From a virus: a stretch of 64,000 bases of DNA. The translations under genes and the position numbers were made by a program. Positions 12,557-63,424 of this stretch are shown piece after piece. The DNA is taken from the IMG/VR virus record IMGVR_UViG_3300020057_000029, positions 91,224 through 155,223 of that record, one strand, 5' to 3'. The notes under the pieces are model-generated. The model saw only the letters and a program-made list of their open reading frames with translations, searched no databases and had not been told where the DNA came from. Every line of letters starts with the position of its first letter. Positions within the stretch are counted from its first letter, which is position 1.

Positions 12557-13366
12557 ATGATCAATTTTAAAGACTTACCTCCTGAAGAGAAAAAAGCCTT
12601 AGCGGAAGAAATGTTCAAACCTCTTGAGTCAGCTGACAAACTAAGAGAATGGATCGTATTCTTCTTTGGTCTTGACATGCCAATTGGACATATTGATCCA
12701 GATTCGAATTCCAGTCCAATTGAGGCAATGTGGGAGATCTACTCCTGTATTAAAGAAAATAAAGGTGAAGATAATCCTGGTTACATCATGCTTTCGGCGC
12801 GGGAAGGTTATAAAACGCTTTCTGCCTCCATTCTAGAAACCCTTCTTTTGGTACATTTCAGACTAACCATCGCTCACCTGGCAGCGATTCAGGCCCAGTC
12901 TGCTAAGGCTATTCAGTATATCAATTTCTTTTTCAACAAAATCCAACCTCTTTTGGAAGTATCGGGTTGGTCTAAAACCAGTGAAAACAAGAGTAAGGTA
13001 AGCTTTCGTACAAAAGAAGGCGATGACGCTTACATTCGCGTAATTGTGGCCACGATGGCTGGCGCTAACTGTATAGATCCTGCTATGGTGCTTGATACAG
13101 ACAGGGGCAATATTTCCGCTCAAGAAGTATATGATTTGGTCAGAAACAATGAATGCGTAATGGTCCTGTCTTTTAACCATAAAACAAATGAGTTGGAATA
13201 TAAAGAAGTCACCCACACATTCGACTCTATCAAAACTTTAGTCACGATAGAATTAGAAAATGGGTCAATTATCAAATGTTCTCCTGAACACAGGTTTTAC
13301 ATAGAAGGCAAGGGCTATATGGAGGCCAAGGATTTGACTGAAGAGGATTATTTAAGTGTCAAATAG
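12557..13366 (+). CDS. Terminase large subunit N-terminal fragment fused to a split-intein N-half
   Basis: The 269-aa product has two parts. Residues 1-171 are the N-extein of a large terminase, with the Walker A variant SAREGYKT (80-87) and the following ATPase strands. Residue 172 is Cys, and residues 172-269 form an intein N-half: block A (Cys1 start, CIDPAMVLDTDRGNI) and block B (IKCSPEHRFYI, with the conserved His). The frame then stops with TAG. The rest of the ATPase and the nuclease are encoded by the gene at 13539-15005, which begins with the matching intein C-half. Trans-splicing would join Asn171 to Ser and give a terminase of about 621 aa. Confidence 0.88.
   Translation: MINFKDLPPEEKKALAEEMFKPLESADKLREWIVFFFGLDMPIGHIDPDSNSSPIEAMWEIYSCIKENKGEDNPGYIMLSAREGYKTLSASILETLLLVHFRLTIAHLAAIQAQSAKAIQYINFFFNKIQPLLEVSGWSKTSENKSKVSFRTKEGDDAYIRVIVATMAGANCIDPAMVLDTDRGNISAQEVYDLVRNNECVMVLSFNHKTNELEYKEVTHTFDSIKTLVTIELENGSIIKCSPEHRFYIEGKGYMEAKDLTEEDYLSVK
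13070..13363 (+). other. Split-intein N-half (IntN) coding segment, 98 aa
   Basis: The segment begins at the Cys codon TGT 13070-13072, which follows the extein residues MAGAN, and ends at the TAG. It carries block A and block B (CSPEH) of a Hint domain but no endonuclease domain. It interrupts the terminase just before Walker B, a conserved site typical of intein insertion. Confidence 0.87.
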
Positions 13367-13410: not shown

Positions 13411-13542
13411 AAACAGTCTTGTAAGAAAAAGAGCTTGCTGATCAAAGGCGCTACAGGAAACACAGGGACAGAGATGGCCTTATCTTTAGGGTATGACCGC
13501 ATCTGGGACTGTGGAAAAATAAGATGGGAGATTTTCTTGTGA
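13411..13542 (+). pseudogene. Relic of a Vsr-like homing endonuclease C-terminus between the intein halves
   Basis: The frame from 13411 reads KQSCKKKSLLIKGATGNTG, then TEMALSLGYDRIWDCGKIRW and a TGA at 13540. By hand alignment about 30 of 39 residues match the tail of the endonuclease at 28523-30226 and about 25 of 39 match that at 10962-12395. Going upstream the frame meets a TAG within about 10 codons, and the nuclease domain is gone. So an endonuclease gene once stood between the intein halves and has been deleted down to its last 40 codons. Its TGA overlaps the GTG start of the intein C-half (GTGA), which may be why this remnant has been kept. Confidence 0.88.
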
Positions 13543-13652
13543 AAAAAGTAAAGATAAAAAGTATTAAAAGGTCAAACGTAGAGGTTCCAATGTTGGACTT
13601 TACCGTTGCTGATAACCACAACTACTTTGTGGAGCAGGCGCTTACTCACAAT
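13539..13652 (+). other. Split-intein C-half (IntC) coding segment, 38 aa
   Basis: The segment ends at the Asn codon AAT 13650-13652, preceded by His; the next codon TCT gives Ser+1. Together with the N-half at 13070-13363 it makes a complete minimal Hint domain of about 136 aa. Confidence 0.87.
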
Positions 13653-15005
13653 TCTGAGCATACAAACATGATGTTCGTAGACGAAATCGACGTGGTGGCA
13701 AATCCTCAAGCCTATGAAGAGGCTAAGCTCATTCCTGGTTATGCTAAGGGATTACATCCGGTTACCGTGAAGCTATCTACTCGTAAATTTGCATTTGGAC
13801 TCATGCAGAAGGAACTTGACCTGGCTCCAATATCAGGTGATAAGATTCTTAGGTGGAATCTTTTAGATGTTACGGAGCGTTGCCCTGATAGTCGCCATAG
13901 GCCAAATGAGCCAAAAGAAGACCGGTATGTAGCAAAAGCCTTGCCTCTAAAACAGATGAGTGTAGAAGACTACTCAGATCTACAAGATGTGGAAAAGGAC
14001 AAGTTCGACCTCATTCCGCAAGCCCATGCTGGATGCTCCAGTTGCAAACTCTTGCCGGTATGCAAGACCAGGCTAGCAGCTCGTCCAGCCAATGATGTTG
14101 GCGGCTTGTTTAAGCCCGTAGGCGCTGTGATTAACACTTTTAAGAAGACCGGCCCTGATCGCGCAGAGGCACAGCTTCTTTGCTGGAAGCCATCCACTAA
14201 AGGAATGGTGTACCCTCGCTTTGAGTCCACACTCGATACCGGCAACGTGATCAGTCTTGAAAAAGCCTGGGAAACCCTTGTTGGTGATCCTCCTCATAAA
14301 AAGAAGATTTCAGAAGCCGATCTTCTTTGGAAGATGCAGCAGCTTGGAATTGCATTCTACGCTGGAGTGGACTGGGGTTATACTCACGATTTCGTAATCG
14401 TTGTTTTTGCCATAATCCCTAATGGTGAAATATGGATTGTAGACTGTTATTCAATGGCCGGTCTAGAATTTTCTGACATCTTGGAAATCGCTAAAGACTA
14501 TCGCGATAAGTACCGTATGGATAAATGGTGGTGTGACCAGGCTATGCCTGCGAATATCAAATCTTTTAACAAGAACCATATGAAATCTCCTTCTTTCACC
14601 AAAGATGTTATGGGTGGAATTGAATCTTTGCGTTCTAAGATCTTAGATGGTAACAGCAGGCGTTTGCTTAAGGTTTTTAATACGGAAAACTGTGAAAAAG
14701 TAATTACAGCCTTTCAAAAACACCATTTCAAGCTAGACAGTGCGGGTAACCCTTCTCTTATCCCAGATGATACCCCTGGGGTCGCAGATAGCGCCGATGC
14801 TATGCGTTACGTTGGCCAAAACATGTTTCCTATCCGTGGACCCCAGAAACCCAGTATGGCCGCTGACGCTACTGGGAATACTGCTGTAATGGTTCAGAAT
14901 GTCGAAAATTCCGAGCTGATGAAGCAGGAGCTATTAAACAGGTTAGAGGGAACAGCTTTTAAGGGCGGGACGGGCAAAAAAGGTGGGTTTCATTTTAACT
15001 TCTGA
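13539..15005 (+). CDS. Split-intein C-half fused to terminase large subunit C-terminal fragment
   Basis: The best start is the GTG at 13539, with GGGAG eight bases upstream and a size of 38 residues for the intein C-half, close to known IntC lengths; an ATG at 13524 in frame is the alternative. Block F/G reads MLDFTVADNHNYFV...ALTHN, with the penultimate His and terminal Asn, followed by Ser as the first C-extein residue. The C-extein has Walker B MMFVDEID, then a CxxC...C cluster (CSSCKLLPVC), and the RuvC-like nuclease with GVDWGYTHDF, a WWCDQA strand and the final acidic motif ADSADAMRY. After splicing it supplies packaging ATPase coupling and headful DNA cleavage. Confidence 0.9.
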   Translation: MKKVKIKSIKRSNVEVPMLDFTVADNHNYFVEQALTHNSEHTNMMFVDEIDVVANPQAYEEAKLIPGYAKGLHPVTVKLSTRKFAFGLMQKELDLAPISGDKILRWNLLDVTERCPDSRHRPNEPKEDRYVAKALPLKQMSVEDYSDLQDVEKDKFDLIPQAHAGCSSCKLLPVCKTRLAARPANDVGGLFKPVGAVINTFKKTGPDRAEAQLLCWKPSTKGMVYPRFESTLDTGNVISLEKAWETLVGDPPHKKKISEADLLWKMQQLGIAFYAGVDWGYTHDFVIVVFAIIPNGEIWIVDCYSMAGLEFSDILEIAKDYRDKYRMDKWWCDQAMPANIKSFNKNHMKSPSFTKDVMGGIESLRSKILDGNSRRLLKVFNTENCEKVITAFQKHHFKLDSAGNPSLIPDDTPGVADSADAMRYVGQNMFPIRGPQKPSMAADATGNTAVMVQNVENSELMKQELLNRLEGTAFKGGTGKKGGFHFNF

Positions 15006-26977: not shown

Positions 26978-28363
26978 ATGATCGAACAACTTCAGTCACT
27001 TATGAAAGCTCTTGAGGCCGGTAGTTACAACGCCGCCCCAGGTCAGCTTGCGCAAGGTGCTGCTTTAATGGTGGAAGACCTTTCCCCAGTAATGCAAAAC
27101 GTAACGTTTGACGACAGCCATATCAAACTTCAAAAAATGCTAACTAGCAAAGATGTAAAAGCTACAATGCATCAATTCAACCGTCAACTTGACTATGGAA
27201 TCTTCGGTGGTTCTGCTCAATTTGAAGGCGGCATTGGTGAAGAAGATACCTCGAACTACGTTCGTGCTATCGTTCCCATGGCCTATTACAGCACGACTCG
27301 TCGTGTTTCTGTTGCTGCTAACCTCATCGGTGCTTTCGACGGCGTAAAAGCTGAAGACCGTGCTGCTGCTGACGCTGCAATGAAACTTGCTGGCGATATC
27401 GAATTCGACTGCTTCCGTGGTCAATCCGATTTCTCAAACGCTGGTGTGTTTGACGGTAACCCTCTCGCTGTAGCGAAAGTGCCCAATATGATTGGACTTG
27501 ACCAACAAGTTCGTCAGTCGGACGCTCAACAAAATACGCAAGATCTTATGTTTGCTGAGTACGGCTCAGACCAAACTGTAGTACTCTCTGCTGGTGGCGC
27601 TCTAACCCAGTCCATCATCGAAGATTCCGCAGTTCGTAGCTCTATGAACATGGGTAATGCTGATAAGCTCGTTCTCGATCCTATCAGTCTCTCTGCATAT
27701 AACAAGATCGCCCACGCTAAAGAACGTATCATGCTCGCTGGCTCTGCTCAAGAAGCTTCCGGCGCTCACTTACGTACTCAGTGGACCTCTTCGGCTATCG
27801 TATCACTTGAAGCTTCGCGCTTCTTGAGTGGTAAGACTCGTCCTGCTCGCGCTCGCGCATCAGCTCTCGCTGGTCCCGCTATCGCTGCTGCTGACGCTGG
27901 TGCCGCTGGTTCGCTCTTGGCCGCTGCTGCATACGTATACTATGCTACTGCTGTTAATGAACGTGGCGAAAGTACTCCTGGTGCATCTAGTTCTGTAACC
28001 CCTGCTCTTGCTGGTAACAAGGTCAATGTGACCATTACTGCAGTAGCTGGAGCTAAGTACTACAACTTGTATCGATCTGCCGCTGGTGGAAATGCAGCTT
28101 CTGCAAAATTCATTGGCAAGATTGCACAAGGTTCTGGCAACCCTGTATTCGCGGATCTTGGTAACCGTTCCCCTGGTTCTGTTACTGGTTTCTTGATTCA
28201 AGGTAACACCATGGGTCTTGCTCAGTTGGCTCCATATAGCAAATTGAAATTGGCTGTTAGTGACCTCTCACTTCCTGAGGCACACTTCAGATTCCTTTCT
28301 CTTGCTGTATACCAACCTCGCAAAAACGTTCTGATCGAGAACATTGATGGTCAACTTAGCTAA
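26978..28363 (+). CDS. Major capsid protein with an internal Ig/FN3-like domain
   Basis: The 461-aa protein follows the scaffold-like gene and has a strong AAGGAGA site and terminator, as expected for an abundantly expressed capsid gene. Its body (residues 1-290 and 405-461) shows HK97-type features such as LDYGIFGGSAQFEGG and a C-terminal FLSLAVYQPRKNVLIENIDG. Between about 300 and 405 there is an Ala/Gly-rich linker and a domain with YVYYATAVNERGESTPG and YYNLYRSAAGG, typical of FN3/Ig-like surface domains inserted into phage capsid proteins. Codon use is highly regular. Confidence 0.8.
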   Translation: MIEQLQSLMKALEAGSYNAAPGQLAQGAALMVEDLSPVMQNVTFDDSHIKLQKMLTSKDVKATMHQFNRQLDYGIFGGSAQFEGGIGEEDTSNYVRAIVPMAYYSTTRRVSVAANLIGAFDGVKAEDRAAADAAMKLAGDIEFDCFRGQSDFSNAGVFDGNPLAVAKVPNMIGLDQQVRQSDAQQNTQDLMFAEYGSDQTVVLSAGGALTQSIIEDSAVRSSMNMGNADKLVLDPISLSAYNKIAHAKERIMLAGSAQEASGAHLRTQWTSSAIVSLEASRFLSGKTRPARARASALAGPAIAAADAGAAGSLLAAAAYVYYATAVNERGESTPGASSSVTPALAGNKVNVTITAVAGAKYYNLYRSAAGGNAASAKFIGKIAQGSGNPVFADLGNRSPGSVTGFLIQGNTMGLAQLAPYSKLKLAVSDLSLPEAHFRFLSLAVYQPRKNVLIENIDGQLS

Positions 28364-32496: not shown

Positions 32497-33324
32497 ATGT
32501 TTTTCCCTCAAAGTAAATCTCCACAAACCGCAATATACCCAGTTCACTGCAAAGAGGCTTCTGGATTATTGCGCCGTTGCGAACCCTTTTTGACTCCAAC
32601 CCAATTGAAGAATCGGTTTTTGCTGGGCATTCCCTTAAAATTCGCCAACGACGATGTCTTAACGGACGAGATCCTAAAAGACCGTATTCATTTGGCAATG
32701 AACGAAGTAGAGCTTCTTTTGAATATTACCATTACCAGAGAAGCCTTTCAAGACAAGCTTCCTTTTGACTATCAGCTCTACAAAGCGTATATTAATCTAG
32801 TGTCAGAAAAAGGACCAATTATTAGTATTGAAAGTCTTGCTATCACAAGCGCTGACTTCAATAATATTTTCACAATTCCACCTGATTGGATCGAAACTTC
32901 AAATTTTTCAAAACGTCTTGTTAACGTGATCCCTCTATTGGCTGCCTATGGCGTAAACACCGTTCAGGGTGCAGTCGGAAATGCCGGTATAGCTTTTTTG
33001 GCCGTGATGGGTGGTTTGAGCTGGGTTCCTGCTTATTGGCAAATCAATTATACCGCAGGTCTTTCTAACAAAGAAGGTCAGGTGCCAGTACCAGTAAACG
33101 AGCTTATTGGGGTAGTAGCTGCTCTAAACACCCTTAGTCTTATCGCGCCTTCAAATATCTATAATAGCCAATCGCTATCTCAAGATGGCATCTCACAGTC
33201 TTCGTCTGGTCTTGGACCTCGTTTGTACGAACTGAGAATTTCTGAACTTGAGAGAAAAAAAGAAGAGCTAACCAGAAAGCTCAAGGCTATCTTTTTCAGC
33301 AGGATAATATTCGGGAACATATAA
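32497..33324 (+). CDS. Putative head-tail connector/adaptor protein, 275 aa
   Basis: The N-terminal region FLTPTQLKNRFLLGI, DEILKDRIHLAMNEVELLL and LPFDYQLYKAYI (residues 30-100) resembles the helical head of phage adaptor proteins. A hydrophobic Gly/Ala region around 150-170 and a helical, Lys-rich tail follow. It is immediately followed by an overlapping ATG. The connector call is an inference from position and helical pattern. Confidence 0.45.
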   Translation: MFFPQSKSPQTAIYPVHCKEASGLLRRCEPFLTPTQLKNRFLLGIPLKFANDDVLTDEILKDRIHLAMNEVELLLNITITREAFQDKLPFDYQLYKAYINLVSEKGPIISIESLAITSADFNNIFTIPPDWIETSNFSKRLVNVIPLLAAYGVNTVQGAVGNAGIAFLAVMGGLSWVPAYWQINYTAGLSNKEGQVPVPVNELIGVVAALNTLSLIAPSNIYNSQSLSQDGISQSSSGLGPRLYELRISELERKKEELTRKLKAIFFSRIIFGNI

Positions 33325-34370
33325 TGGGTTTAAGTAAATTTTTGCTACAATCTATGTCAGAGCACAAGGATAAGGTCAAAGGGCCTCATTTCCTGTTTTC
33401 TGCAGAGAACCCTCGTTTTCCGCAAAAAACTACGCTAAGCCACGAAGACGTTGTAAAACATCTAAAAGGTGCGGGTTTTGATGCGCACGAAGTGAATGGT
33501 CATTATGGATCTCCCGAGCGCAGCATTGCTGTTTATGGCGTGAGTAAGGTTCAGGGAGAAGAGCTTCACGACATGGCTTCCCGTTTAGGTCAAGATAGCT
33601 CTATTTATTCCAATGGTAAACAGCACGAAATGCGCTTTCATCATGGAGAAAATGCTGGCAAAGCCCATTATGGAGAAGGCACTAAGTGGCATTTGCAAAA
33701 GCCAGCAGACTATTTTACCACCCTTCCTGGCGGACATCACCATTTTACCCATGATTTCAAATTTGACACCTTACACCCAGCGGGCCAGTTACACAATGTT
33801 CACGAGATGCTTGGTAAGCAAGTTTCTGCAGAGCACAAAACCGCTCAAGAAGCTGTTGCTTCGCCTTTAAACCAAAAACTTGAGAGTGATCATGACACCA
33901 ATATGAAAGGTATCAAGGATGGTCTTAAGGACGACATAAAGAAAAACGAACAAGAGCGTATAAAACTTGTTCATTTTTCCTCTCAAGGCGATCTAAAACA
34001 TATTGACCCTAATTTCAAACAAACTGGGGTAGACGCTGGAAAAAAGGGCAGAGATACTTTTCATCCTCACTCATTCTATTACGTAGAGGGCACTGAACCT
34101 GAACAGATCGTTGTGAGTCAAAGCCGTCACAAATATAAGACCAGCATAAACCCTGCTGAAAAACCTGTATACGATCTCGGTCATGATCCAAAAGGTGTGG
34201 TCGATGAAGCAATTAAGGAAAACCAGGGCGTTTTAAACATGGACATGGTTCATGAAAAATTAAAAGATGCTGGGTTTCACGGATTTAGAAACTCAAAACA
34301 CCCTAGTCTATCTAATGTGGTCGGAATGTATCATCCTTTGGCAGTGGAGCATCATGAACAAATCAGATAA
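33324..34370 (+). CDS. Putative ADP-ribosyltransferase-like domain protein, 348 aa
   Basis: The N-terminal half (1-185) is His/Gly-rich with repeated HH and GHH motifs (LPGGHHHFTHDF). The C-terminal half (210-348) reads KLVHFSSQGDLKHIDPNF, SFYYVEGTEP and AGFHGFRNSKHP...GMYHPL, matching the ART-like domains that occur in phage head-associated polyvalent proteins (HYS..L..IDP...G). Such domains may modify host proteins after injection. The catalytic residues cannot be set by eye. It overlaps the next gene by 17 bases. Confidence 0.5.
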   Translation: MGLSKFLLQSMSEHKDKVKGPHFLFSAENPRFPQKTTLSHEDVVKHLKGAGFDAHEVNGHYGSPERSIAVYGVSKVQGEELHDMASRLGQDSSIYSNGKQHEMRFHHGENAGKAHYGEGTKWHLQKPADYFTTLPGGHHHFTHDFKFDTLHPAGQLHNVHEMLGKQVSAEHKTAQEAVASPLNQKLESDHDTNMKGIKDGLKDDIKKNEQERIKLVHFSSQGDLKHIDPNFKQTGVDAGKKGRDTFHPHSFYYVEGTEPEQIVVSQSRHKYKTSINPAEKPVYDLGHDPKGVVDEAIKENQGVLNMDMVHEKLKDAGFHGFRNSKHPSLSNVVGMYHPLAVEHHEQIR

Positions 34371-35949: not shown

Positions 35950-36324
35950 ATGAGCGTAAAGATCTTTTATTCTAAAAAAATCGCTACTTACGATCCAGAT
36001 AAGCCCTTGCAGCATCAGTTGAAAGGTTGCAAAAAGGTCGTAATAGAATACGAACCTAAAGATTCTTCCATCGATAGGTTTATTGATGAAATTGAACAAC
36101 TTTGTGATAAAAACAATAGCACTGTCTTAAACATAAATTTGGTTCATAACGACTTTATAGCTGGTGCTAAGTTAAAAAAACGCGTAAAAAAATTAGAAAC
36201 AAATACCTCTGTAAACACGCTTATAAAAATGATGGCGTCTGGGTATTCAGAAACAGATAAGAAACTGGAGCAAATTGCTTCTATCTGTACAGAGGGTGAC
36301 TGCAATGGCAAAGAGAAAGCCTAA
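35950..36324 (+). CDS. Hypothetical 124-aa protein of the neck module
   Basis: Not recognised. The ATG at 35950 is chosen because it directly follows the previous stop (TAATATG); a longer frame would overlap that gene. The protein is Lys-rich and helical in its second half (residues 60-115) and ends with a Cys pair. Its end overlaps the next gene's start by about 20 bases. Confidence 0.55.
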   Translation: MSVKIFYSKKIATYDPDKPLQHQLKGCKKVVIEYEPKDSSIDRFIDEIEQLCDKNNSTVLNINLVHNDFIAGAKLKKRVKKLETNTSVNTLIKMMASGYSETDKKLEQIASICTEGDCNGKEKA

Positions 36325-37249
36325 CGGAATTCAGGCAGATACTATCAATCGATATAGCCCGTTTACTCAACTCTCTTTTGATTTGAAGAGACAGGATGTT
36401 TTCGTTACCAGTTTTGCTATTGATTTCTTGCATTACAAGGCTATGCCTAGCCCTATAGGCAAAAAAGATAGAGGCGACTATCGCCGCCAAGATGGCGTAG
36501 ATACGATCACGTCTAATGGTATGATTTATAAATGCTCTGGTGTTTTCTCAGCCACAATGGTGGATAATGAGCGTAAACAGAGAAAAGGCGACATCGGCAC
36601 TTTAGACCCTTCGACTGGTAGAATCATCATGCCTCGTTTTTACAACAAAGACGGTACCAAAGGCAACTTGGCAGATGGCAAACGTATCTATTTGGCACCA
36701 GGAGATCGGCTTTACATAGCAGATCCAGTTGCTGACGTGAAAGTAGAAAATTACCAGGAAATGGACTATGAGCCTGGAATCGACAATGAAGCAAAATTTG
36801 CCATTGTGGAACTAGCGCTTCCTATTGTGGATAGCCGAAACATCGAATATACAGAAAATGTAGATTTTTCAATCACTTGCGATGGAAACGTCCGATGGCT
36901 TGATAGTGGAAAAAATCCTGGTATTGATCCAACTACTGGAAAGGGTAGGATTTATTCAATTCGCTACCGATACAAGGCTTATTGGTATGTAACCATGATA
37001 CCAAAAGAAGTTCGGGTGACCAATGTTACTACGGATGGCATTAGATCTCCCGAAAGAATGGCTTATCATGCGGTTATCACTCGGGAATATATGTATCATA
37101 ATCAGAACAAGGGTGATGCTGTAAACCAGCTTGAGTCTAAAGATCCCAAAAGGGCTCAAAGCGAACCAGTTCGGTCGATTACTCCAAATAAGTTTGTTGT
37201 ACCCGTAGACATGAGCGCTATTGGCGAAGAAAATAGCGACGAAGACTAA
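36305..37249 (+). CDS. Virion structural protein, 314 aa
   Basis: The start at 36305 is preceded by GAGGG. The protein is beta-rich with regular Asp/Gly turns (GRIYSIRYRYKAYWYVTMIP near 225; AYHAVITREYMYHNQ near 262) and a Pro/Asp-rich tail. The pattern fits a neck, collar or head-completion protein. No family name is recognised. Confidence 0.6.
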   Translation: MAKRKPNGIQADTINRYSPFTQLSFDLKRQDVFVTSFAIDFLHYKAMPSPIGKKDRGDYRRQDGVDTITSNGMIYKCSGVFSATMVDNERKQRKGDIGTLDPSTGRIIMPRFYNKDGTKGNLADGKRIYLAPGDRLYIADPVADVKVENYQEMDYEPGIDNEAKFAIVELALPIVDSRNIEYTENVDFSITCDGNVRWLDSGKNPGIDPTTGKGRIYSIRYRYKAYWYVTMIPKEVRVTNVTTDGIRSPERMAYHAVITREYMYHNQNKGDAVNQLESKDPKRAQSEPVRSITPNKFVVPVDMSAIGEENSDED

Positions 37250-37746: not shown

Positions 37747-38880
37747 ATGTCTTTCGGCAACTCCTTTCTTAAAAAAGCGTTAGGCGAAGATTTTTTTGAA
37801 TCTTTGCAAAAAGTTGAGCTTTATAAGCAAGGCACTCGCACGACCGTAGATCCAGAGGAAATTGCCACGGCCCTTCAGATTGTACCAAGAACCTTGATGG
37901 CGTTTTTGGTGAACACTCTTTCTCCTTTAAAGGTAGGAGACAACAAAAGAATTCAGCTCCCTCTTCAAGAATCTGGCGTATTCCTCAATGCCACCAAGCT
38001 GGAGCGCGACGTTTATATTGGCAATATTGAGCAAGCCGGTAAGATTGTGACTGAGTATAAATTCAGATCCATTCCAGGGATTGGACTTATTATCATGTCA
38101 GCTTACGAGCTCTATGATATTAATAAGTTGATAGAGCCTCCAAAAGTGGAGGAAGACGTTGCCTCCAAAGTGCAACATATGATCAATGAACGTCTTGCTA
38201 TACATGATATAGTTGGTCAGGTGGTCGATAAGACTATGGCTGAACGTGAAGCGCTAAACAAGCTCATGCTCATGAAACTGACCAATGAGCTCAATGCTAC
38301 TAGGGAAGAATTAGAACGTGAAAGAGTAAGGCTTGCTGGCTGTGCCGTTGCTGCTCATGGTGGTGTAAAGCCTGGAGAACTCCAACCTGGTGACTACGGA
38401 CACTCTGCATCTTTGGACGATGTTCTACATCTTCGTGAAAAAAACGAGAAGTTTAAAAAAGACATTGCTAACGTGGCCAGAGTTTTTTCGGAAGATCCTG
38501 CTTCTAAAAGCGATGAGTATTTACGCGGCTTGGCCAACGGAATTGCTGTTGTTGATGCTACCATAAATGATAAGGAACCAGAATTCGTGGATGCACCCAA
38601 AAAAGGCTCTCAAAAACTAAAAAACTTTGTAGAGCGCCGAAAACAGCCTCAAGAATTTTCTATTCAAATGGCCAAAGGTGAGCAAGTTGATTGCCCTGAT
38701 TGTGGCAAAAACATCTTTGATGGCACTGTATTTTCTGGCTGTATTTGCTTTGGCGATGATCGCGAGCGCAAGGTTTTTGTTAGGAAAAGTGATACCGGAA
38801 TCAATGTGCGTTTCTCTAAAGGCTTTGATCCTGAAAATATCGAAATGCTTCTAGATATTCTTAGGAGAAAACATGGATAA
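37747..38880 (+). CDS. Zinc-finger virion-module protein coupled to the mCpol gene, 377 aa
   Basis: Not assigned to a family. Residues 1-130 are alpha/beta with PRTLMAFLVNTLSPLKVGDN. Residues 145-215 form a long coiled coil (NKLMLMKLTNELNATREELERERVRL). A zinc site CPDCGKNIFDG...CIC lies near 319-338, and the last 40 residues form a small domain. It overlaps the mCpol gene by 8 bases (ATGGATAA), so the two products are made together and may interact. It may tie the nucleotide-polymerase domain to the virion. Confidence 0.6.
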   Translation: MSFGNSFLKKALGEDFFESLQKVELYKQGTRTTVDPEEIATALQIVPRTLMAFLVNTLSPLKVGDNKRIQLPLQESGVFLNATKLERDVYIGNIEQAGKIVTEYKFRSIPGIGLIIMSAYELYDINKLIEPPKVEEDVASKVQHMINERLAIHDIVGQVVDKTMAEREALNKLMLMKLTNELNATREELERERVRLAGCAVAAHGGVKPGELQPGDYGHSASLDDVLHLREKNEKFKKDIANVARVFSEDPASKSDEYLRGLANGIAVVDATINDKEPEFVDAPKKGSQKLKNFVERRKQPQEFSIQMAKGEQVDCPDCGKNIFDGTVFSGCICFGDDRERKVFVRKSDTGINVRFSKGFDPENIEMLLDILRRKHG

Positions 38881-40549
38881 TATATTTTTAGCAATGGACG
38901 CAGATAACGCAGGAAGAATGGTCGGAAGAGCCGTTCTTGCTAACGATGTTGCTGCTCTTACCGAAGTAAGCTCCAGAATCGATCTGGGACAAGAAATCAT
39001 CGCCAGGTGGGTTCAAGAACAGGGCGGAAAAAAGATTTCTGCTGGAGGAGATGAGTTCACAGCCCAGATGCCGCCTGGTTCTATTGAAACGATTGAAGAA
39101 CTTCGGAAGGACTATCAATTTGCTACGAATCTAACAATGACCGTTGGCGTAGGCAAAGATTTGTCCCAAGCTGGCAAGTCTCTTATGGCCGGAAAACTAC
39201 GTGGTAAAAATATCGTAGTGATATTCGATGAAACCGTTGATTCTGAATTGCAGTCCGCACATCTACATGCTGGAGACGGAACTGGATCGGAAGAAGAAAA
39301 CAAGCTAGACGAAGCGTATCTTAGCGATGGTCAACAAAACGAGCAGGGAGAGGACGCCGCCAATGATGGTCAGGGCGAATTCTCTGATGGTAAAAATCAT
39401 GATAGCGAAGCCAATCGTGAGGCAAAGGGCGATGATGTTGGGCCTGGTTCTACTGAAGAAAGCCCAGGAGAGGGCGTTGAGCCTACCGCTACAGATCAAC
39501 AAGCTGAACAAAATGATCAACAAGCACAATTTAACACAGATGGTGAAGAGCCTGGTCCAACCGACCCAAAAGCTCAATCCAATCCCAAAACCGAAGGTGC
39601 GGAAAAGCTAGAGGAAAAATCTATGAACGATAAATCTAACGGAAACAGTGTAAAACCAAAAAACAAGGAGATCGTAAATGAAGGCTCTAAAGAAAAAGAT
39701 CCAAAAGCAGGTCAAGAAAATGTTGACAAGCTTAAAGAAAAAATTGATGAAGCCAGCCCCGAAAGCCAAAGCCAAGAAAAAGATGTAATGGAAAATATTG
39801 ACGATGCAGATCTTGCAACTGGCCATGCCGATGGAAAAGGGGTGGATGACAAAGACTCCGACCAAACTCCTGGTGACATGGGCCTAGGCGATGAAGCAGA
39901 AGCTGGGGCTGAAGAAGGTGTTGATCCTCAAGATCCTAGTGCTTCTGAAGAAGAAGGCGAAGAAGATCTTAATCCAGATCAGCTTCCTGGCGAAGACAAA
40001 GAAGACCCTGACTACAAAGAAGTTCTTGGTGACGCGATTGCCTCTGAACAAGAAAACATTCAAAAAGAAAAAGTCGTACAGATGGTAGCTGAAGCCCTAG
40101 AAGTCTTCAAAAGTCAGCGCCATATTTTGGAACGAGCTAAAGAACAAGCCCCTGAGCTCTATAACGGCTCGATCAAAATGCTTCGCGCAATGATTGAAAT
40201 GTCAAAATTGCTTGGTTTTGGCGATGGGCTAGAAGATCCTGAACACGATGCTCAGCAAAATGGCGCTGACTCCCTGTTTGGCAATGACGAAGACATGCCT
40301 GCCGATGACGAAGATATGCTTGCCGATGACGAAGATATGCTTGCCGATGACAAACCTTTCTTGGATGGTTCTGATTCTGAAGAAGGTGCGGAAGATAAAG
40401 AGAAGCCTGCTAGCAAACCTGAATTTCCTCCTAAGAAAGATGGTAAATCTGCTAAACCCGACGTTTCACCAGACGCTAAAGGAAAACCTAGTTTCCCCCC
40501 TAAAAAACCAGAAGGAAAACCTGCTGGAAAAAAGCCAGCGGGGCAATAG
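38873..40549 (+). CDS. mCpol/GGDEF-like nucleotide polymerase domain with long acidic tail (0-frame product)
   Basis: Residues 1-115 of the 558-aa protein match the mCpol (minimal CRISPR-type polymerase) plan, a small relative of GGDEF and Cas10 palm domains. AMDADNAGR (D9, D11) supplies the first metal-binding strand, ISAGGDEF (58-62) the GGDEF motif, then an ATNLTMTVGVG strand and the LSQAGKSLMAGKLRGKN helix. mCpol proteins synthesise cyclic oligonucleotides or are predicted to. From about 120 to 550 the protein is acidic and disordered, with Asp/Glu/Gln/Pro-rich repeats and a helical island (about 395-460). It lies amid virion genes. Its last codons contain a slippery heptamer, so a longer product is expected. 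Confidence 0.72.
   Translation: MDNIFLAMDADNAGRMVGRAVLANDVAALTEVSSRIDLGQEIIARWVQEQGGKKISAGGDEFTAQMPPGSIETIEELRKDYQFATNLTMTVGVGKDLSQAGKSLMAGKLRGKNIVVIFDETVDSELQSAHLHAGDGTGSEEENKLDEAYLSDGQQNEQGEDAANDGQGEFSDGKNHDSEANREAKGDDVGPGSTEESPGEGVEPTATDQQAEQNDQQAQFNTDGEEPGPTDPKAQSNPKTEGAEKLEEKSMNDKSNGNSVKPKNKEIVNEGSKEKDPKAGQENVDKLKEKIDEASPESQSQEKDVMENIDDADLATGHADGKGVDDKDSDQTPGDMGLGDEAEAGAEEGVDPQDPSASEEEGEEDLNPDQLPGEDKEDPDYKEVLGDAIASEQENIQKEKVVQMVAEALEVFKSQRHILERAKEQAPELYNGSIKMLRAMIEMSKLLGFGDGLEDPEHDAQQNGADSLFGNDEDMPADDEDMLADDEDMLADDKPFLDGSDSEEGAEDKEKPASKPEFPPKKDGKSAKPDVSPDAKGKPSFPPKKPEGKPAGKKPAGQ
40280..40353 (+). repeat. Short tandem repeat, 21-base unit, in the acidic tail
   Basis: Three near-identical copies of a 21-base unit encode the heptapeptide ADDEDML (one variant has MP), marking recent slippage expansion in the disordered region of the mCpol gene. 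Confidence 0.8.
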
Positions 40550-40562: not shown

Positions 40563-40761
40563 AAAACTACCGACCAAGCAAACCACCTCTCACGTAGCGC
40601 GTGAAACGTTGCCACCTGGAGCGATTAACGCTAAAGGGCAGCAAAAGGTTATCGACCCTGTTACTGGTAAAACCAGATTTATAGACAGGAAAGCCGGTGT
40701 AGTAATGAGTTCCACCGGAGTCCCTGTAAAATCGGGAGGCGTGAATGGCTCTCAAAATTAA
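40534..40761 (+). CDS. -1 frame extension of the mCpol protein (75 residues, made by frameshift)
   Basis: The frame reads ASGAIGSPIGKLPTKQ..., then VARETLPPGAINAKGQQKV, IDPVTGKTRFIDRKAGVV and STGVPVKSGG, ending TAA at 40761. The composition is that of a real folded peptide, not noise, and it fills what would otherwise be a 195-base gap in a very compact gene cluster. No ATG, GTG or plausible strong start exists near its beginning; an ATT at 40558 with GGTAG upstream is the only independent-start alternative. Frameshifting at 40528-40534 gives a 629-aa fusion. The end overlaps the start of the next gene (40745). Confidence 0.7.
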   Translation, partial: ASGAIGSPIGKLPTKQTTSHVARETLPPGAINAKGQQKVIDPVTGKTRFIDRKAGVVMSSTGVPVKSGGVNGSQN

Positions 40762-41497
40762 CTTAGATCTTGATAAGATAGCGGATCATTTCAAGGAGCT
40801 AGCCTACGAAGTAAAACAAGATTTAGAAAAAGGCGTTGGCAGCTTAGCTGCAATGACCCATGCTAGAGTTGCTGAGATAGCCAGTAGCGAATTGAATTCT
40901 TCTAGAAAAGAGTTTCAAGAATCTCTTGGTTTTGAAGAGATATCTCCTGGCGTTTGGGTTGTAAGCGTAGATGAAAAAGGTCTATGGGTAGAAGAAGGTA
41001 TTAAGCCTAATACGGATATGAAGGAAGGCCTTCTACGAGAAGGCGCAAAAACATCGAAGGATGGCTATAAGTACAAGTCGATTCCTTTTGATCACGGCAA
41101 AGCTCCTTCGCAGATGACACCCTATGCTAAAACGCTAGTAAGTCAGATCCGATATGTTTTAAAAAAAGAAGGTATTTCTTTTAAGAAGATTGAGAATGGT
41201 CCTAATGGGAATCCTAGGCTTGGTAAATTACACAAGCTAGACATTGATTCTATGCCACCAACCTCTCGGGCAAACACTGGAGCTCTACAGGGCCTAACGA
41301 TCTATCAAAGCAAAAATGCGGCTGGCAATGTTAGACGAGACATAATGACTTTTAGAACGGTTAGTGACGGTCCTAAGGGTCAAGGTAAATGGATTCACCC
41401 TGGAATGCAGGCTAAGAAGTTTTTAGACAGAGCAGCAGAATGGGCTTTAAAAGAATGGGAAGAAAAAATTCTTCCAGAGATATTAAAGAAATATTAA
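40745..41497 (+). CDS. Putative tail-completion/neck protein (HK97 gp10-like), 250 aa
   Basis: A GGGAGGCGTG ribosome site precedes the start. The N-terminal helix (LDKIADHFKELAYEVKQDLEKGVG), a GVWVVSVDEKGLWVEEG strand pair and the C-terminal WIHPGMQAKKFLDRAAEWALKEW resemble the HK97 gp10-like minor tail and completion family, in which W.hPG...fl..a is common. The position before the sheath gene supports a neck or tail-terminator role. Confidence 0.55.
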   Translation: MALKINLDLDKIADHFKELAYEVKQDLEKGVGSLAAMTHARVAEIASSELNSSRKEFQESLGFEEISPGVWVVSVDEKGLWVEEGIKPNTDMKEGLLREGAKTSKDGYKYKSIPFDHGKAPSQMTPYAKTLVSQIRYVLKKEGISFKKIENGPNGNPRLGKLHKLDIDSMPPTSRANTGALQGLTIYQSKNAAGNVRRDIMTFRTVSDGPKGQGKWIHPGMQAKKFLDRAAEWALKEWEEKILPEILKKY

Positions 41498-41498
41498 T

Positions 41499-42503
41499 AT
41501 GGGTATTTTTCAAGCAGATGTAGTTATCAAGACAATCGTGGAGCTCGCGTTCGATGACGTGCGCAAAAACGATTGGTTGGTTGATGATATTTTGTCTGAT
41601 TGCGTAGTAAACCCTTATTTAAAAGACAAGTATGGTCAATCCCAGATAGACGCGTGCAAGGAATGGTTAAAAAACAACCAGGTAGACGTTGCTCTTGGTT
41701 ATCTAGAAAATAACAAGCTTCCTCTAATAACGATCATTCTTGGGGCAAGCCAGGAGAAAGAAGGCATGAAATCCATGGCCGATCTTTCTACTGAAAGCAA
41801 GATTCTCTTGCCAAATGAGATTGGCAAACCGATCCCTTTTGTAATAAAACCATTTGTACCCGCTGGGTATGATCAGAATACTGGTATCGTTTCTTTGCCT
41901 CAGTCCGTTATAGATAAGGATTCTATTGCAGAAGGTATGATCCTGGTAAATCCAGAAAATGGCACGGGGTATATCATACAAGAAATTGTTCCAGAAGGTG
42001 TGCGTATCGAAGCTGGTATGGAAATTGATGCTACCCAGCTTGCAGTTGTACCCCAGTATCAATACTATGTCGCCAGAATAGAACATTCTTTTTTTCAAGA
42101 ATCACATACGATCAAGTGTACTGCGCACGGAAATGCTCAAGTATGTCTCTGGATGTGGGGTATAGTAAAATACGCCCTAATGCGCTACCGTGAAGGTCTT
42201 TTGGAAGCCAATGGCTTTTCTGAGAGTGTTCTTTCTAGCGGCGATTTGGCCCCAGACCCCCTGTTTCCTGGAGAGGGTGGCGAATTAGCATGGAGCCGAG
42301 CCATAGGCCTGACTGGACAAGTCGAGAATACATGGATCAAATCTCCACATCGTGTGATTGAAAAGATATCCTTAAAAGAGCTTACTCCAGGCGAAGCTCC
42401 TGGTTTTAGAGGCGGAATCAAGATTTTGAGCAATTTAGATTCTCCAGATTTTTTAGATAACAACTCCGAATGCTGGACAACTGTTGACGAAAATGAGGAA
42501 TAA
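41499..42503 (+). CDS. Virion protein, 334 aa (neck/tail module)
   Basis: Not recognised. It begins one base after the previous stop. The protein has a helical N-terminus (1-75), a middle beta region (GMILVNPENGTGYIIQEIVPEGVRIEAG) and a Gly/Pro-rich C-terminal third. Size and position next to the sheath suggest a tail-terminator or connector. Confidence 0.55.
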   Translation: MGIFQADVVIKTIVELAFDDVRKNDWLVDDILSDCVVNPYLKDKYGQSQIDACKEWLKNNQVDVALGYLENNKLPLITIILGASQEKEGMKSMADLSTESKILLPNEIGKPIPFVIKPFVPAGYDQNTGIVSLPQSVIDKDSIAEGMILVNPENGTGYIIQEIVPEGVRIEAGMEIDATQLAVVPQYQYYVARIEHSFFQESHTIKCTAHGNAQVCLWMWGIVKYALMRYREGLLEANGFSESVLSSGDLAPDPLFPGEGGELAWSRAIGLTGQVENTWIKSPHRVIEKISLKELTPGEAPGFRGGIKILSNLDSPDFLDNNSECWTTVDENEE

Positions 42504-43404: not shown

Positions 43405-45561
43405 ATGGCTCAAAGATTAGTAACTAGTTTCGTAAATACAAATGTACCTGGCGCTTACCCCAATCAAAGCGTTATTAGCAAGCCAGTAGGCTTTGCTTCT
43501 TCTGGTAACATCGTTATCATTGGAGAAGCTGATGGTGGTGACAACTTCGCTAACGTGGATCTGAAGAAGAATTTCTTTGGTCCTAGTCAAGCGGCAAAAG
43601 TTGCCCAACAGTACATCCGTGGATCTCTTGTAGACGCCATGAATGCACTTGCTGGACCTTCTGCTGATCCAGAAATTGTTGGATCTGCAAATCGTATTTA
43701 TATCTTAAAAACCAACTCTGGAAGCCAGGCTTCTGCCTTGGTTGATACCGATTATGGCACACTGAAGGATAAAAACTGGGGCTTGGATGGTAATAAATAC
43801 AATTTCAAAGTAACCCAAGTGGCAGCAGAGGCCGCTCCAGAAATTTCTGGTATTACAATCGTTACTTTTGGAGCCACCTTGAACGGTGCTTCTTTCAGTC
43901 TCCGCCAAAATGGTGGTGCTGCTGTTGTAATTGCTCTTAGCGGAATCGCTGGTGACCATGCGGACCAGGCCACTTTGATCATTGAACTTAACAGTTTGCT
44001 TCCTATTGGTGTCACTGCCTCTGCTGGCGCTGCTATTAATAGTATCAAGCTTGCTATGGCCGTAGATGCTGCTGCTAACCGTAAGGGTTGGGCTAAATCT
44101 CTTGAGCTTATCGATTCCACCCCAGGCGATCTCGCTGCTCTTGGACACGATGAAAACTTAATCGTTTCCGCTCAAGAAGCTGAAATTGAACTTTCCATTG
44201 CTCGCGCCGATACGAATCTAAGCGAAGTATGGGATATCGATGCTGAAGTTGCCTTTCAAATTGGATATCTTGGCACAACCGCTACTATGACCATAAATCA
44301 ATCGGCTAAGACCCTAACCACTACCGTAACAGGTGGTGCTGGTAGTAACTTGAGCTTAAGTCTGGCGAACTTTGCAACCCTTGGAAATTTGTCTGCTTTC
44401 ATTGCTACTCAACCTGGATACTCTGCTGCTATTCCGGCTGCATCATTGCAATTGGCACCTTCTTCCTTGGACGCTGTTACTGCAATCGGTATCGGCGCAA
44501 GTGTTGCTGGTGACATGCCTGGACGTGTAAAACGCGGTCTCTATGATTTCAAAGTATCTGTTGGTCAATCTCGCGCTCTTGCTTTTACTGCAATTGCCCA
44601 AGCTGGCCTGCCTGATGCTTCTGCTACCGCCTACTTAGCAGGTGGTCTAAAGGGCGCAACTACGGCTGCTCAAGTTGCCGCTGCTATCGCAAAGCTTTCT
44701 GGTCTATCTGTGAACATTATTGTTCCCCTGTTTTCCCGCGACGCTAGTGCCGATATCGCTGACGCTTTAACTGACAGTGCTTCAACCTATACAATTGATG
44801 CTATTCACGCTCTTGTGAAAACTCATTGCTTGACCTATTCAACCCCTAAACTTAAGAAACATCGCTCTGCAGTGCTTTCTTTCTGGGGCACCTTTGCTCA
44901 GGCCCAACAAAAAGCTCAACAGTTGGCCCAATACCGTTGTGCCATGACCATGCAACGTGCTACTCAAGTTAGCTCTACTACAAACCAAAGTGAAGTTTTC
45001 TTGCCCTGGATGAATGCGGTAATCGCAGCTGGAATGCAAGCTGGTGGTTTTTATAAAGCTATTGTCAATAAGCTTGCTAACGTGATTAGCTTTGAAGATC
45101 CTGCTGGATTTGATTCTGGTGACCCAGACGATAACAGCACTGCACTCGACGCTGGCCTGATGTTCTTGACTCAAGAAGACAATGATGGCCCTCGTTGGGT
45201 TTCTGACCAAACCACCTATGGTTTTGATACGAACTTTGTATACAACAGCTTCCAAGCGGTATACTTGTCCGATTCTCTAACCTTAGACCTTGCCTCTAGC
45301 TTTCAAAAAGCTTTTACTGGCAAAAACGTAGCAGATATCGATGCAGGTGCCGCTCGCGGATTCTTGCACCAGAAGATGGCTGAATACAAGCGTCTAAAAA
45401 TGATTGCTTCCAGTGTTGATGCTCCCTTGGGCTTCAAAAACGAAAATGTTGTAGTTGCCCCCCCAGAACTCGATATCGCTGTTGAAGTAAAACTCGCTAC
45501 TGCGATTTACTTTATACCAATTGATGTGAGTTTCTCGCAAGTAATTCAGACATCGGCTTAA
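43405..45561 (+). CDS. Tail sheath protein
   Basis: The 718-aa protein is followed by a tail tube gene, the usual sheath-tube pair. The N-terminus (SVISKPVGFASSGNIVIIGEADGG) and the gene-18-like C-terminal domain (INKLANVISFEDPAGF region; FLHQKMAEYKRLKMI; final strand VAIYFIPIDVSFSQVIQTSA-like beta-strand) are typical of contractile sheath subunits. The middle is an Ala/Ser/Thr-rich expansion (about 150-430) that would lie on the sheath surface. It shows the phage has a contractile tail. A GAGGAG ribosome site precedes the start. Confidence 0.85.
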   Translation: MAQRLVTSFVNTNVPGAYPNQSVISKPVGFASSGNIVIIGEADGGDNFANVDLKKNFFGPSQAAKVAQQYIRGSLVDAMNALAGPSADPEIVGSANRIYILKTNSGSQASALVDTDYGTLKDKNWGLDGNKYNFKVTQVAAEAAPEISGITIVTFGATLNGASFSLRQNGGAAVVIALSGIAGDHADQATLIIELNSLLPIGVTASAGAAINSIKLAMAVDAAANRKGWAKSLELIDSTPGDLAALGHDENLIVSAQEAEIELSIARADTNLSEVWDIDAEVAFQIGYLGTTATMTINQSAKTLTTTVTGGAGSNLSLSLANFATLGNLSAFIATQPGYSAAIPAASLQLAPSSLDAVTAIGIGASVAGDMPGRVKRGLYDFKVSVGQSRALAFTAIAQAGLPDASATAYLAGGLKGATTAAQVAAAIAKLSGLSVNIIVPLFSRDASADIADALTDSASTYTIDAIHALVKTHCLTYSTPKLKKHRSAVLSFWGTFAQAQQKAQQLAQYRCAMTMQRATQVSSTTNQSEVFLPWMNAVIAAGMQAGGFYKAIVNKLANVISFEDPAGFDSGDPDDNSTALDAGLMFLTQEDNDGPRWVSDQTTYGFDTNFVYNSFQAVYLSDSLTLDLASSFQKAFTGKNVADIDAGAARGFLHQKMAEYKRLKMIASSVDAPLGFKNENVVVAPPELDIAVEVKLATAIYFIPIDVSFSQVIQTSA

Positions 45562-55975: not shown

Positions 55976-56503
55976 TTAAATTTTTTTATCGGCCAAAATA
56001 GTATCAGTCAGGATTGCCCCAGTCAGGTCAGCCCCAGTCAGGTTTGCCCTAATCAGGTTTGCCCCAAACAGGTTTGCCTTGGTCAGGTCAACCCAAGTCA
56101 GGTTTGCCTCGAACAGGTCAGCCTGAGACAGGTCAGCCTGAAACAGGTTTACCCAATACAGGTTTGCCCTAGTCAGGTTTGCCTTAGACAGGTCAACCCC
56201 AGACAGGTTTACCCAATACAGGATTGCCCCAAACAGGTTTGCCCCAGACAGGTTTGCTCCAGACAGGTTTGCTCCAGACAGGTTTGCTCCGCGTAGGTTT
56301 GCCACAATCAGGTTTGCCCTGAACAGGTCAGCCCCAATCAGGTCAGCCCTAGTCAGGTTTGCCCCAGACAGGCTTGCCCCAGACAGGTCAGCCCCAGACA
56401 GGTCAGCCCCAATCAGGTCAGCCTTTTCCCCACCTTCTTCACCTTTTAAAAACATAACATGTAGTTTAAGGATATTATCTAAAATTTGCTTATCCATATT
56501 CAT
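55976..56503 (-). CDS. Pentapeptide-repeat protein (family copy 1), 175 aa
   Basis: After a leader conserved among the copies ([26 protein letters not shown]), about 26 pentapeptides of the A(D/N)LSGA type follow, ending in a conserved TDTILADKKI tail. Pentapeptide repeats fold as right-handed quadrilateral beta-helices; some members (MfpA, Qnr) mimic DNA and protect or block gyrase. Five paralogues sit within 8 kb. The role here is unknown. Confidence 0.85.
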   Translation of the reverse strand: MNMDKQILDNILKLHVMFLKGEEGGEKADLIGADLSGADLSGASLSGANLTRADLIGADLFRANLIVANLRGANLSGANLSGANLSGANLFGAILYWVNLSGVDLSKANLTRANLYWVNLFQADLSQADLFEANLTWVDLTKANLFGANLIRANLTGADLTGAILTDTILADKKI

Positions 56504-56506
56504 CTC

Positions 56507-57094
56507 TTAAATTTTCTTATCGGCTAAAATAGTACTAGTCAGGTCAACCCTAGTCAGGTCAACCCCAGACAGGTCAGCCCCAGAAAGGTTTGCCCCAGAC
56601 AGGAAAGCCCCAGAAAGGTTTGCTAAAGTCAGGTCAGCCCCAGACAGGTTTGCCCCGCGAAGGTCAGCCCCAGTCAGGTTTGCCCCGGTCAGGTTTGCCC
56701 CGTAAAGGTCAGCCCAAGCCAGGTTTGCCTGAGACAGGTTTGCCAAAGCCAGGAAGGCCCCAGACAGGACAGTCCTGAACAGGTCAGCCTTAGTCAGGTT
56801 TGCCTCAGACAGGTCAGCCCCAGACAGGTAGGCCCCAGACAGGTTTGCCCCAGACAGGTCAACCCCAGACAGGAAAGTCCTAATCAGGTTTGCCCCGCGA
56901 AGGTTTGCCCTGTAAAGGCTTGCCCCGTAAAGGTTTGCCCTAGACAGGTTTGCTAAAGACAGGTTTGCTAAAGACAGGTTTGCCAAAGACAGGTTTGCCC
57001 CAGACAGGTTTGCCCTTTCCCCACCTTCTTCACCTTTTAAAAACATAGCATGTAGCTTAAGGATGTTATCTAAAATTTGCTTTTCCATATTCAT
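56507..57094 (-). CDS. Pentapeptide-repeat protein (family copy 2), 195 aa
   Basis: The same leader ([26 protein letters not shown]) and tail (TSTILADKKI) as copy 1, with about 30 repeats of the ANLSGA/ADLSGA type. It starts 12 bases after the 82-aa copy ends and is directly followed by copy 1, so the three are tandem duplicates that differ mostly in repeat number. Confidence 0.85.
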   Translation of the reverse strand: MNMEKQILDNILKLHAMFLKGEEGGERANLSGANLSLANLSLANLSLANLSRANLYGASLYRANLRGANLIRTFLSGVDLSGANLSGAYLSGADLSEANLTKADLFRTVLSGAFLALANLSQANLAWADLYGANLTGANLTGADLRGANLSGADLTLANLSGAFLSGANLSGADLSGVDLTRVDLTSTILADKKI

Positions 57095-57107
57095 CTCTTA
57101 AATTTTT

Positions 57108-57356
57108 TTATCGGCCAAAAATAGTATCAGTCAGGTTTGCCCCAGTCAGGTCAACCCCAGACAGGTCAGCCTTAGACAGGTTTGCCCAAGCCAGGTTTGC
57201 CCCAGCCAGGTAAGCCCCAGAAAGGTTTGCTAAAGTCAGGTCAGCCCCAGTCAGGTCAACCCCAGACAGGTTTGCCCTTTCCCCACTTTCTCCACCTTTT
57301 AAAAATATAGCGTGTAGTTTAAGGATGTTATCTAAAATTTGCTTTTCCATAGTCAC
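57108..57356 (-). CDS. Short pentapeptide-repeat protein (family copy 3), 82 aa
   Basis: The leader [26 protein letters not shown] is kept, but only about 10 repeats remain and the tail reads TDTIFGR, one base off the TILADK tail of the other copies. A frameshift has removed the usual end, so it may be a degraded or shortened copy produced by recombination between repeats. Confidence 0.78.
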
Positions 57357-62905: not shown

Positions 62906-63424
62906 TTATTCGATCTTAGCCTTATCGGCCAAAATAGTACCAGACAGGCTTGCCCCAGACAGGTCAGCCTTAGACAGGCTTGCCCCAGACAGGTCAGCCC
63001 AAGACAGGTTTGCTTTGGTCAGGTCAGCCCTGGTCAGGTCAGACCCGTAAAGGCTTGCCCTAGAAAGGTCAGCCCTAGTCAGGTCAGCCCCGTAAAGGCT
63101 TGCCCTAGAAAGGTCAACCCCAGACAGGTCAGCCTCAGACAGGTCAGCCTCAGACAGGTCAGCCCCAGTCAGGTTTGCCTTAGACAGGTTTGCCCCGAAC
63201 AGGCTTGCCCCAGTCAGGAAAGCCCCGAACAGGCTTGCCCCGAACAGGTTTGCCCCAGTCAGGTTTGCCCTAGTCAGGTCAGCCTCAGACAGGTTTGCCC
63301 CACGAAGGTCAGCCTCAGACAGGTTTGCCTCAGTCAGGTTTGCCCTTTCCCCAGCCTTTTCATCTTTTAAAAATATAGCATGCAGCTTAAGGATGTTATC
63401 TAAAATTTGCTTTTCCATATTCAC
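62906..63424 (-). CDS. Pentapeptide-repeat protein (family copy 4), 172 aa
   Basis: Same leader ([26 protein letters not shown]) and tail ([12 protein letters not shown]) as the copies at 55976-57356, with about 25 repeats, including repeated RASLYGADLTRADLSRASLY blocks. It is 5.5 kb from the other group, so the family has been duplicated more than once. Confidence 0.83.
   Translation of the reverse strand: MNMEKQILDNILKLHAIFLKDEKAGERANLTEANLSEADLRGANLSEADLTRANLTGANLFGASLFGAFLTGASLFGANLSKANLTGADLSEADLSEADLSGVDLSRASLYGADLTRADLSRASLYGSDLTRADLTKANLSWADLSGASLSKADLSGASLSGTILADKAKIE

Follow-up and report, generated by a model that had tools for sequence, protein, structure and literature searches.

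An mCpol-type palm domain on a conserved virion-module protein in a family of phages related to Myxococcus phage Mx1

Positions 38873-40549 of a 64,000-nucleotide stretch of phage DNA (positions 91,224 to 155,223 of IMG/VR record IMGVR_UViG_3300020057_000029, here called the window) hold a gene whose product begins, by sequence profiles and a confident structure prediction, with a complete mCpol domain of the compact, Cas10-like palm fold. mCpol is a bacterial immune enzyme, and what is new here is its presence in a protein of a phage virion module; the kind of enzyme is itself known. Our best explanation of the whole, to which we give a probability of roughly 45%, is that the protein is a late, probably particle-associated cyclic-dinucleotide synthase that acts on host nucleotide signalling. 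No description of a phage mCpol was found in a literature search, which left out bioRxiv and most subscription papers.

The palm domain and its active site

The gene and the segments of its product are as follows, with the basis of each assignment in brackets.

38873-40549, plus strand: mCpol-bearing gene, ATG at 38873, 558 amino acids, overlapping the upstream gene by 8 nucleotides
38873..39247, plus strand: mCpol palm domain, residues 1-125 (PF18182, phmmer match to OptS, AlphaFold2 model, Foldseek)
39248..40066, plus strand: acidic low-complexity linker, probably disordered, residues 126-398 (composition, alignability)
40067..40231, plus strand: conserved C-terminal hairpin, predicted helical, residues 399-453 (hidden Markov model, HMM, from 8 orthologues)
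40232..40549, plus strand: acidic, then Pro/Lys-rich C-terminus and stop, residues 454-558 (translation, composition)

Residues 5-118 match the mCpol profile PF18182 over its whole length, profile positions 1-114 of 114, with 37.5 bits (E 3.4e-9), where the cut-off is 26.4; the NCBIfam mCpol model scores 37.6, slightly short of its cut-off of 40. Searched against the PDB with phmmer, the domain gave a whole-domain match to the solved Panoptes OptS/mCpol chains (E 1.1e-8) and no other convincing sequence match. An AlphaFold2 model, made from an alignment of eight phage palms, predicts a palm fold with a mean predicted local distance difference test score (pLDDT) of 95.6 and a predicted TM-score (pTM) of 0.87. 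The top six Foldseek matches to this model are OptS/mCpol chains (TM-score 0.79-0.83 by query, 0.83-0.88 by target), of which the five best superpose on it with a root-mean-square deviation of 1.4-1.7 Å, and GGDEF domains come next. The signature GG[D/E]EF is present at residues 58-62, but the domain plan is unlike that of a GGDEF diguanylate cyclase, and the full GGDEF profile PF00990 matches neither the window protein (P0001) nor anything else in its contig (G000). Together these results bear out a preliminary description of this DNA, which had read the domain as mCpol rather than as a full diguanylate cyclase.

That description had also placed the open reading frame and four motifs, each of which lies where it was said to be: AMDADNAG, containing D9 and D11; GGDEF at residues 58-62; TVGVG at 90-94; and LSQAGKSLMAGKLRGKN at 97-113, within which fall K108, G111 and K112. 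In KpOptS, D6 and D57 are catalytic and S30 and N34 contact the base (PMC12657218, PMC12657230). The catalytic pair aligns with D9 and D60 of the window palm, with no gaps up to that point, and the base-selecting positions S30 and N34 correspond to S33 and D37. In a tree of palms the intact phage sequences group together (support 64/92), as do the bacterial ones (79/84); support for both groups is modest, and the bacteria are represented by just seven rows. A close fold match in BFVD, the uncharacterised uncultured-phage protein A0A6J5L1I5 (TM-score 0.90 by query), indicates that the fold was already in public data.

Conservation of the active site was assessed in a census of 47 further contigs chosen for length, 40 of which carry a palm: 26 with D9 and D60, four with D9N and ten degenerate. 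A set of 39 conserved palms, scoring above 100 bits and including nine intact palms from earlier finds, has a median pairwise identity of 37%, and in all 39 of these D11, G14, D60, G92 and K108 are invariant; position 9 is D in 35 and N in four. Circularity in this result is limited because the palms were selected on overall score and not on these residues; the profile itself was built from intact palms. The preliminary description had regarded loss of the metal-binding Asp residues in close relatives as evidence against its proposal. Such loss is seen in the D9N clade and in the decayed lineages, but not in most relatives, and the closest palm to that of the window, in G009 (67% identical), keeps D9.

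In one phage pair, purifying selection is stronger on the intact than on the dead palm: between G003 and G013 the ratio of nonsynonymous to synonymous substitution rates (dN/dS) reaches 0.189 in the dead palm but 0.050 in the intact one, against 0.048 in a neck gene, at dS of 0.6-1.45. For the window palm and its nearest relative synonymous sites are saturated, and no usable value was obtained.

A conserved carrier with a variable palm

Behind the palm lies the long acidic tail that had been noticed earlier, which is confirmed by its composition: the linker is 29% D+E and 12% hydrophobic residues, with an isoelectric point of 4.05, and it aligns poorly with the linkers of relatives. The hairpin that follows stands in the same open reading frame as the palm in 39 of the 40 census proteins, is kept in the palm-less G018 too, and is thus, rather than the palm, the constant part of the gene across the phage family. 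The HMM built on its eight orthologues has this gene as its sole significant match, and the idea that the hairpin is a packaging signal common to the scaffold or other virion proteins was rejected on that ground. Zinc-ribbon-like repeats (CPYC/CxYC) occur in the acidic tails of some orthologues (L036:10001-11290, L064:2481-3977, L197), that of G018 included.

The window belongs to a contig of 155,223 bp, recorded as that of a phage, which carries genes for a terminase, a portal, a protease-like protein, the major capsid protein and a sheath. Those features of the contig that locate the gene are listed here.

26978..28363, plus strand: major capsid protein (MCP), PHROG_752, the basis of the family definition and tree
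36275..37249, plus strand: virion structural protein, PHROG_1004-like (PHROG match, syntenic)
37747..38880, plus strand: zinc-ribbon-tailed virion-module protein, syntenic in Mx1, G003, G006, G009, G013 and G018
40745..41497, plus strand: connector/neck-type protein, PHROG_16819 (PHROG match, syntenic)
41499..42503, plus strand: probable tail terminator (weak match to PF23932 SP10_terminator, below cut-off; syntenic)
43405..45561, plus strand: tail sheath protein, PHROG_279, 40% identical to the Mx1 sheath

The virion-module setting given in the preliminary description is thereby upheld, with the PHROG_1004 relative and the zinc-ribbon gene upstream and the connector-type and sheath genes downstream. 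Its phrase 'between neck genes' is roughly right: PHROG_16819, the weak tail-terminator match and the sheath lie on the downstream side, while the upstream side holds the zinc-ribbon gene and the PHROG_1004 relative. An alignment of the neck protein searched against the PDB gave nothing but spurious adenylosuccinate lyase matches. The order of zinc-ribbon gene, hairpin/palm gene and connector gene is fixed in Mx1 and in metagenomic relatives.

Myxococcus phage Mx1 is the nearest cultured phage found (MCP 54% and sheath 40% identical to those of the window) and has a long contractile tail (PMC10720576). Scans with sheath, palm and MCP alignments gathered more than 80 contigs into a large family of phages with contractile tails, Mx1 included. 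Direct tblastn searches of the INPHARED phages with the window palm, OptS and the G003 palm gave no match, the sole copy found among those phages being the decayed one of Mx1; tblastn of plasmids with the G003 palm gave none either.

Within this family the palm behaves as cargo on a conserved carrier. In G018, whose MCP is 88% identical to that of the window, the palm is gone and the tail and hairpin are kept; in G006 both palm copies are degenerate. In G003 and G013 the copy at the usual position is dead, and an intact palm is carried by a different protein, encoded between the connector genes and the sheath; its fusion partner is GNAT in G013 and, by a weak match, a SAM-lyase-like domain in G003. 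In G014 an intact palm lies within a protein of 1,128 amino acids, with neighbours that bear NUDIX domains. All four phages with D9N, G039 for example, belong to a single clade. When the MCP tree is rooted at its midpoint, intact palms stand to either side of its deepest split. The label 'intact' has to change seven times on this tree, and well-supported branches force at least four of these changes. An ancestral intact palm followed by repeated loss is the simplest reading, for which palm replacement may be an alternative, and such recurrent changes of state are the pattern expected of a conflict gene.

Several other features were observed. The domain with a weak likeness to phage SAM lyase (PF23780/DUF3293) recurs in the virion modules of L010 (L010:4925-5857) and L038 (L038:6853-9564); it is fused to the intact palm in L010 and is related to the window product of 33324-34370. 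Elsewhere in the window the large terminase gene is apparently split between 12557-13366 and 13524-15005, an intein-like C-terminal end (...VEQALTHNS) preceding the terminase match, which is to PHROG only; a separate endonuclease-like open reading frame lies at 10962-12395, and that of 9174-10946 resembles, by eye, a GroEL-type chaperonin. Four minus-strand open reading frames (55976-57356 and 62906-63424) share the same N-terminal start and pentapeptide-like repeats (ANLSGANL), and are apparently recent paralogues.

Possible functions of the palm

Given the OptS-like fold and the intact active site, cyclic-dinucleotide synthesis is the likeliest activity of the intact members, and sequence and model together make it quite probable that these are catalytic. 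Since most members keep the active site and a few have broken or lost it, the phages probably make such signals themselves. Of the roles suggested in the preliminary description, two results favour the making of nucleotides: 35 of the 39 conserved palms have an intact active site, and in one phage pair the active palm is under the stronger purifying selection. The palm may also sequester nucleotides.

A structural role had been suggested as well, and in its full form would have the palm as a pseudo-enzyme or nucleotide-binding fold whose only use is to mediate protein-protein contacts in the connector region, with catalysis irrelevant. The fixed position in the virion module and the conserved hairpin fit a structural carrier; moreover purifying selection still acts on the degenerate palm pair (dN/dS 0.19), and the modelled dead palm of G006 is still OptS-like (TM-score 0.69-0.74, pLDDT 78.6), its alignment having contained intact palms. 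However, the columns that hold the active site rank with the best conserved in the 39 divergent palms, the active palm tolerates less change than the dead one, and intact palms are found in other proteins where the position copy is dead. Because it has decayed in some relatives and is deleted in G018, which does without it altogether, the palm is not an essential part of such a carrier, and we regard a purely structural palm as rather unlikely.

Under the synthase reading, which we prefer, the late protein would consist of two parts, a C-terminal hairpin that acts, behind its acidic linker, as a structural component or as a tether to the particle, and an N-terminal mCpol palm carried as cargo, which would be a catalytically competent cyclic-dinucleotide synthase. 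The palm is assumed to dimerise as OptS does, and the dimer would bind two nucleoside triphosphates with metal at D9 and D60 and join them into a cyclic dinucleotide, for which our guess is an adenine-containing or mixed product. The protein would enter the host with the DNA, or be made along with the particle proteins, and its product would then interfere with host cyclic-nucleotide defence, either as a decoy or by replenishing a signal. The late position among particle genes points to particle association and delivery, as does the fusion of palms to enzyme-like domains in relatives, and the like has been proposed for polyvalent proteins (PMC5512222); by analogy, association of the window-type protein with the particle seems somewhat more probable than its absence, and the packaged-and-injected role put forward earlier is consistent with the same two features.

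The product could instead be a house-keeping signal, c-di-GMP or c-di-AMP, that alters motility, envelope or lysis timing and not immunity. The family does use cyclase domains repeatedly, since true GGDEF domains with intact motifs are present in the virion region of Mx1 (L005:7174-7905) and of about nine other members (L185-L193), several of them in proteins longer than 1,000 amino acids (as open frames) near the MCP gene, and D37 at a base-contact position could favour a non-adenine base. However, the closest solved relatives of the palm are immune synthases and not diguanylate cyclases, a PilZ receptor was not found in the eight phages of the family that were searched, and recurrent loss is easier to understand in a conflict gene than in a switch of core physiology, so that we consider such reprogramming unlikely. 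The idea that every phage has one and only one active cyclase, whether a palm or a GGDEF domain, fitted the first few phages but was rejected: both occur in six census members, and GGDEF matches are missing from about ten whose palms are degenerate or D9N.

Kinship with OptS and recurrent loss make conflict with host nucleotide-based immunity the likeliest purpose of the synthase, and it is our tentative view, held at a little under even odds, that host nucleotide-based defence is its target. A more specific proposal, that a phage-delivered, OptS-like synthase replenishes an inhibitory cyclic dinucleotide or floods host receptors with a decoy and so disarms Panoptes or CBASS, is fairly unlikely as it stands. 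Small proteins with the Acb2/Tad1 hairpin (PF24729) score above cut-off in G019, G021, G025 and G043 (L201-L204), all four of which have intact palms, and if the proposal is true the synthase in these members would keep Panoptes from firing while the sponge drains the host signal. That the palm belongs instead to a Panoptes-like defence borne by the phage itself, excluding superinfection with an OptE-type effector, would suit the fold and active site that the mCpol domain shares with OptS; its neighbours, however, are virion genes, and the effector families Cap15/S-2TM-beta (PF18153) and SAVED (PF18145) gave no match in eight family contigs, possibly incomplete and including that of the window, which makes this explanation highly improbable.

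Several points weigh against the synthase reading. Catalysis is not essential, because several lineages persist with their palm dead or missing, and the product is not predictable, because D37 replaces N34 of OptS, even if S33 matches. The dN/dS contrast comes from the one genome pair, at the dS range given above, and packaging is argued from gene position and analogy only. Neither biochemistry nor virion proteomics of family members was found. The window's own contig is without an Acb2 match, and the link between Acb2 and palm (4/19 against 0/14 long contigs; one-sided Fisher p 0.095, kinship uncorrected) is not significant.

The Panoptes papers (PMC12657218, PMC12657230) describe phages that counter nucleotide-based immunity by destroying the signal or soaking it up. 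If the synthase reading is true, a widespread phage family plays this contest differently, supplying signal instead of removing it, by way of a virion-module protein whose palm is recurrently lost. The existing assays for OptS, OptE and CBASS make the reading directly testable, and cultured Mx1 offers a dead-palm comparison.

Comparison with known systems

The second palm of Cas10/Cmr2 (PF22335) matches the window palm weakly (E 3.6e-4, below cut-off), and there is a fold match to Cmr2, but the window protein is without Cas10 architecture and mCpol fits far better. GGDEF diguanylate cyclases (PF00990) have the palm fold and the GGDEF signature in common with it, but their domain, at 161 positions, is longer, and its profile does not match P0001. 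In Mx1, the hypothetical protein WNM70340.1 is the orthologue of the window gene by synteny, hairpin and decayed palm; it differs in having lost its catalytic residues, D9 and GGDEF among them. The intact GGDEF domain of Mx1 belongs to another gene (product WNM70324.1), which is annotated 'nucleotide cyclase'.

Among the injected 'polyvalent' phage proteins, GGDEF domains have already been reported, and a word search of that paper (PMC5512222) finds mention of a Cas10-type polymerase, though not of mCpol. Like the proteins described there, the palms of G003, G013 and G014 sit in fused virion-module proteins and, judged by their domains, are plausibly polyvalent-type multi-domain proteins, whereas the window protein has a single enzymatic domain and a tail. 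Mx1 has near its palm gene a polyvalent-type protein of 1,479 amino acids (L005:14405-18844) with GNAT, ART-PolyVal and NUDIX domains.

The nearest known system is that of Panoptes OptS/mCpol (PDB 9mnr, 9pd0, 9nwn; PMC12657218, PMC12657230). It differs from the phage gene in several respects: no OptE effector was found in the eight phage contigs searched, OptS has AADGV where the phage palm has an intact GGDEF and N34 where the phage has D37, and the phage gene lies in a virion module with an acidic tail and hairpin fused on. The likeness extends over the whole domain, at 27% identity in the fold alignment, and D6, D57 and S30 of OptS have their counterparts in D9, D60 and S33 of the window palm.
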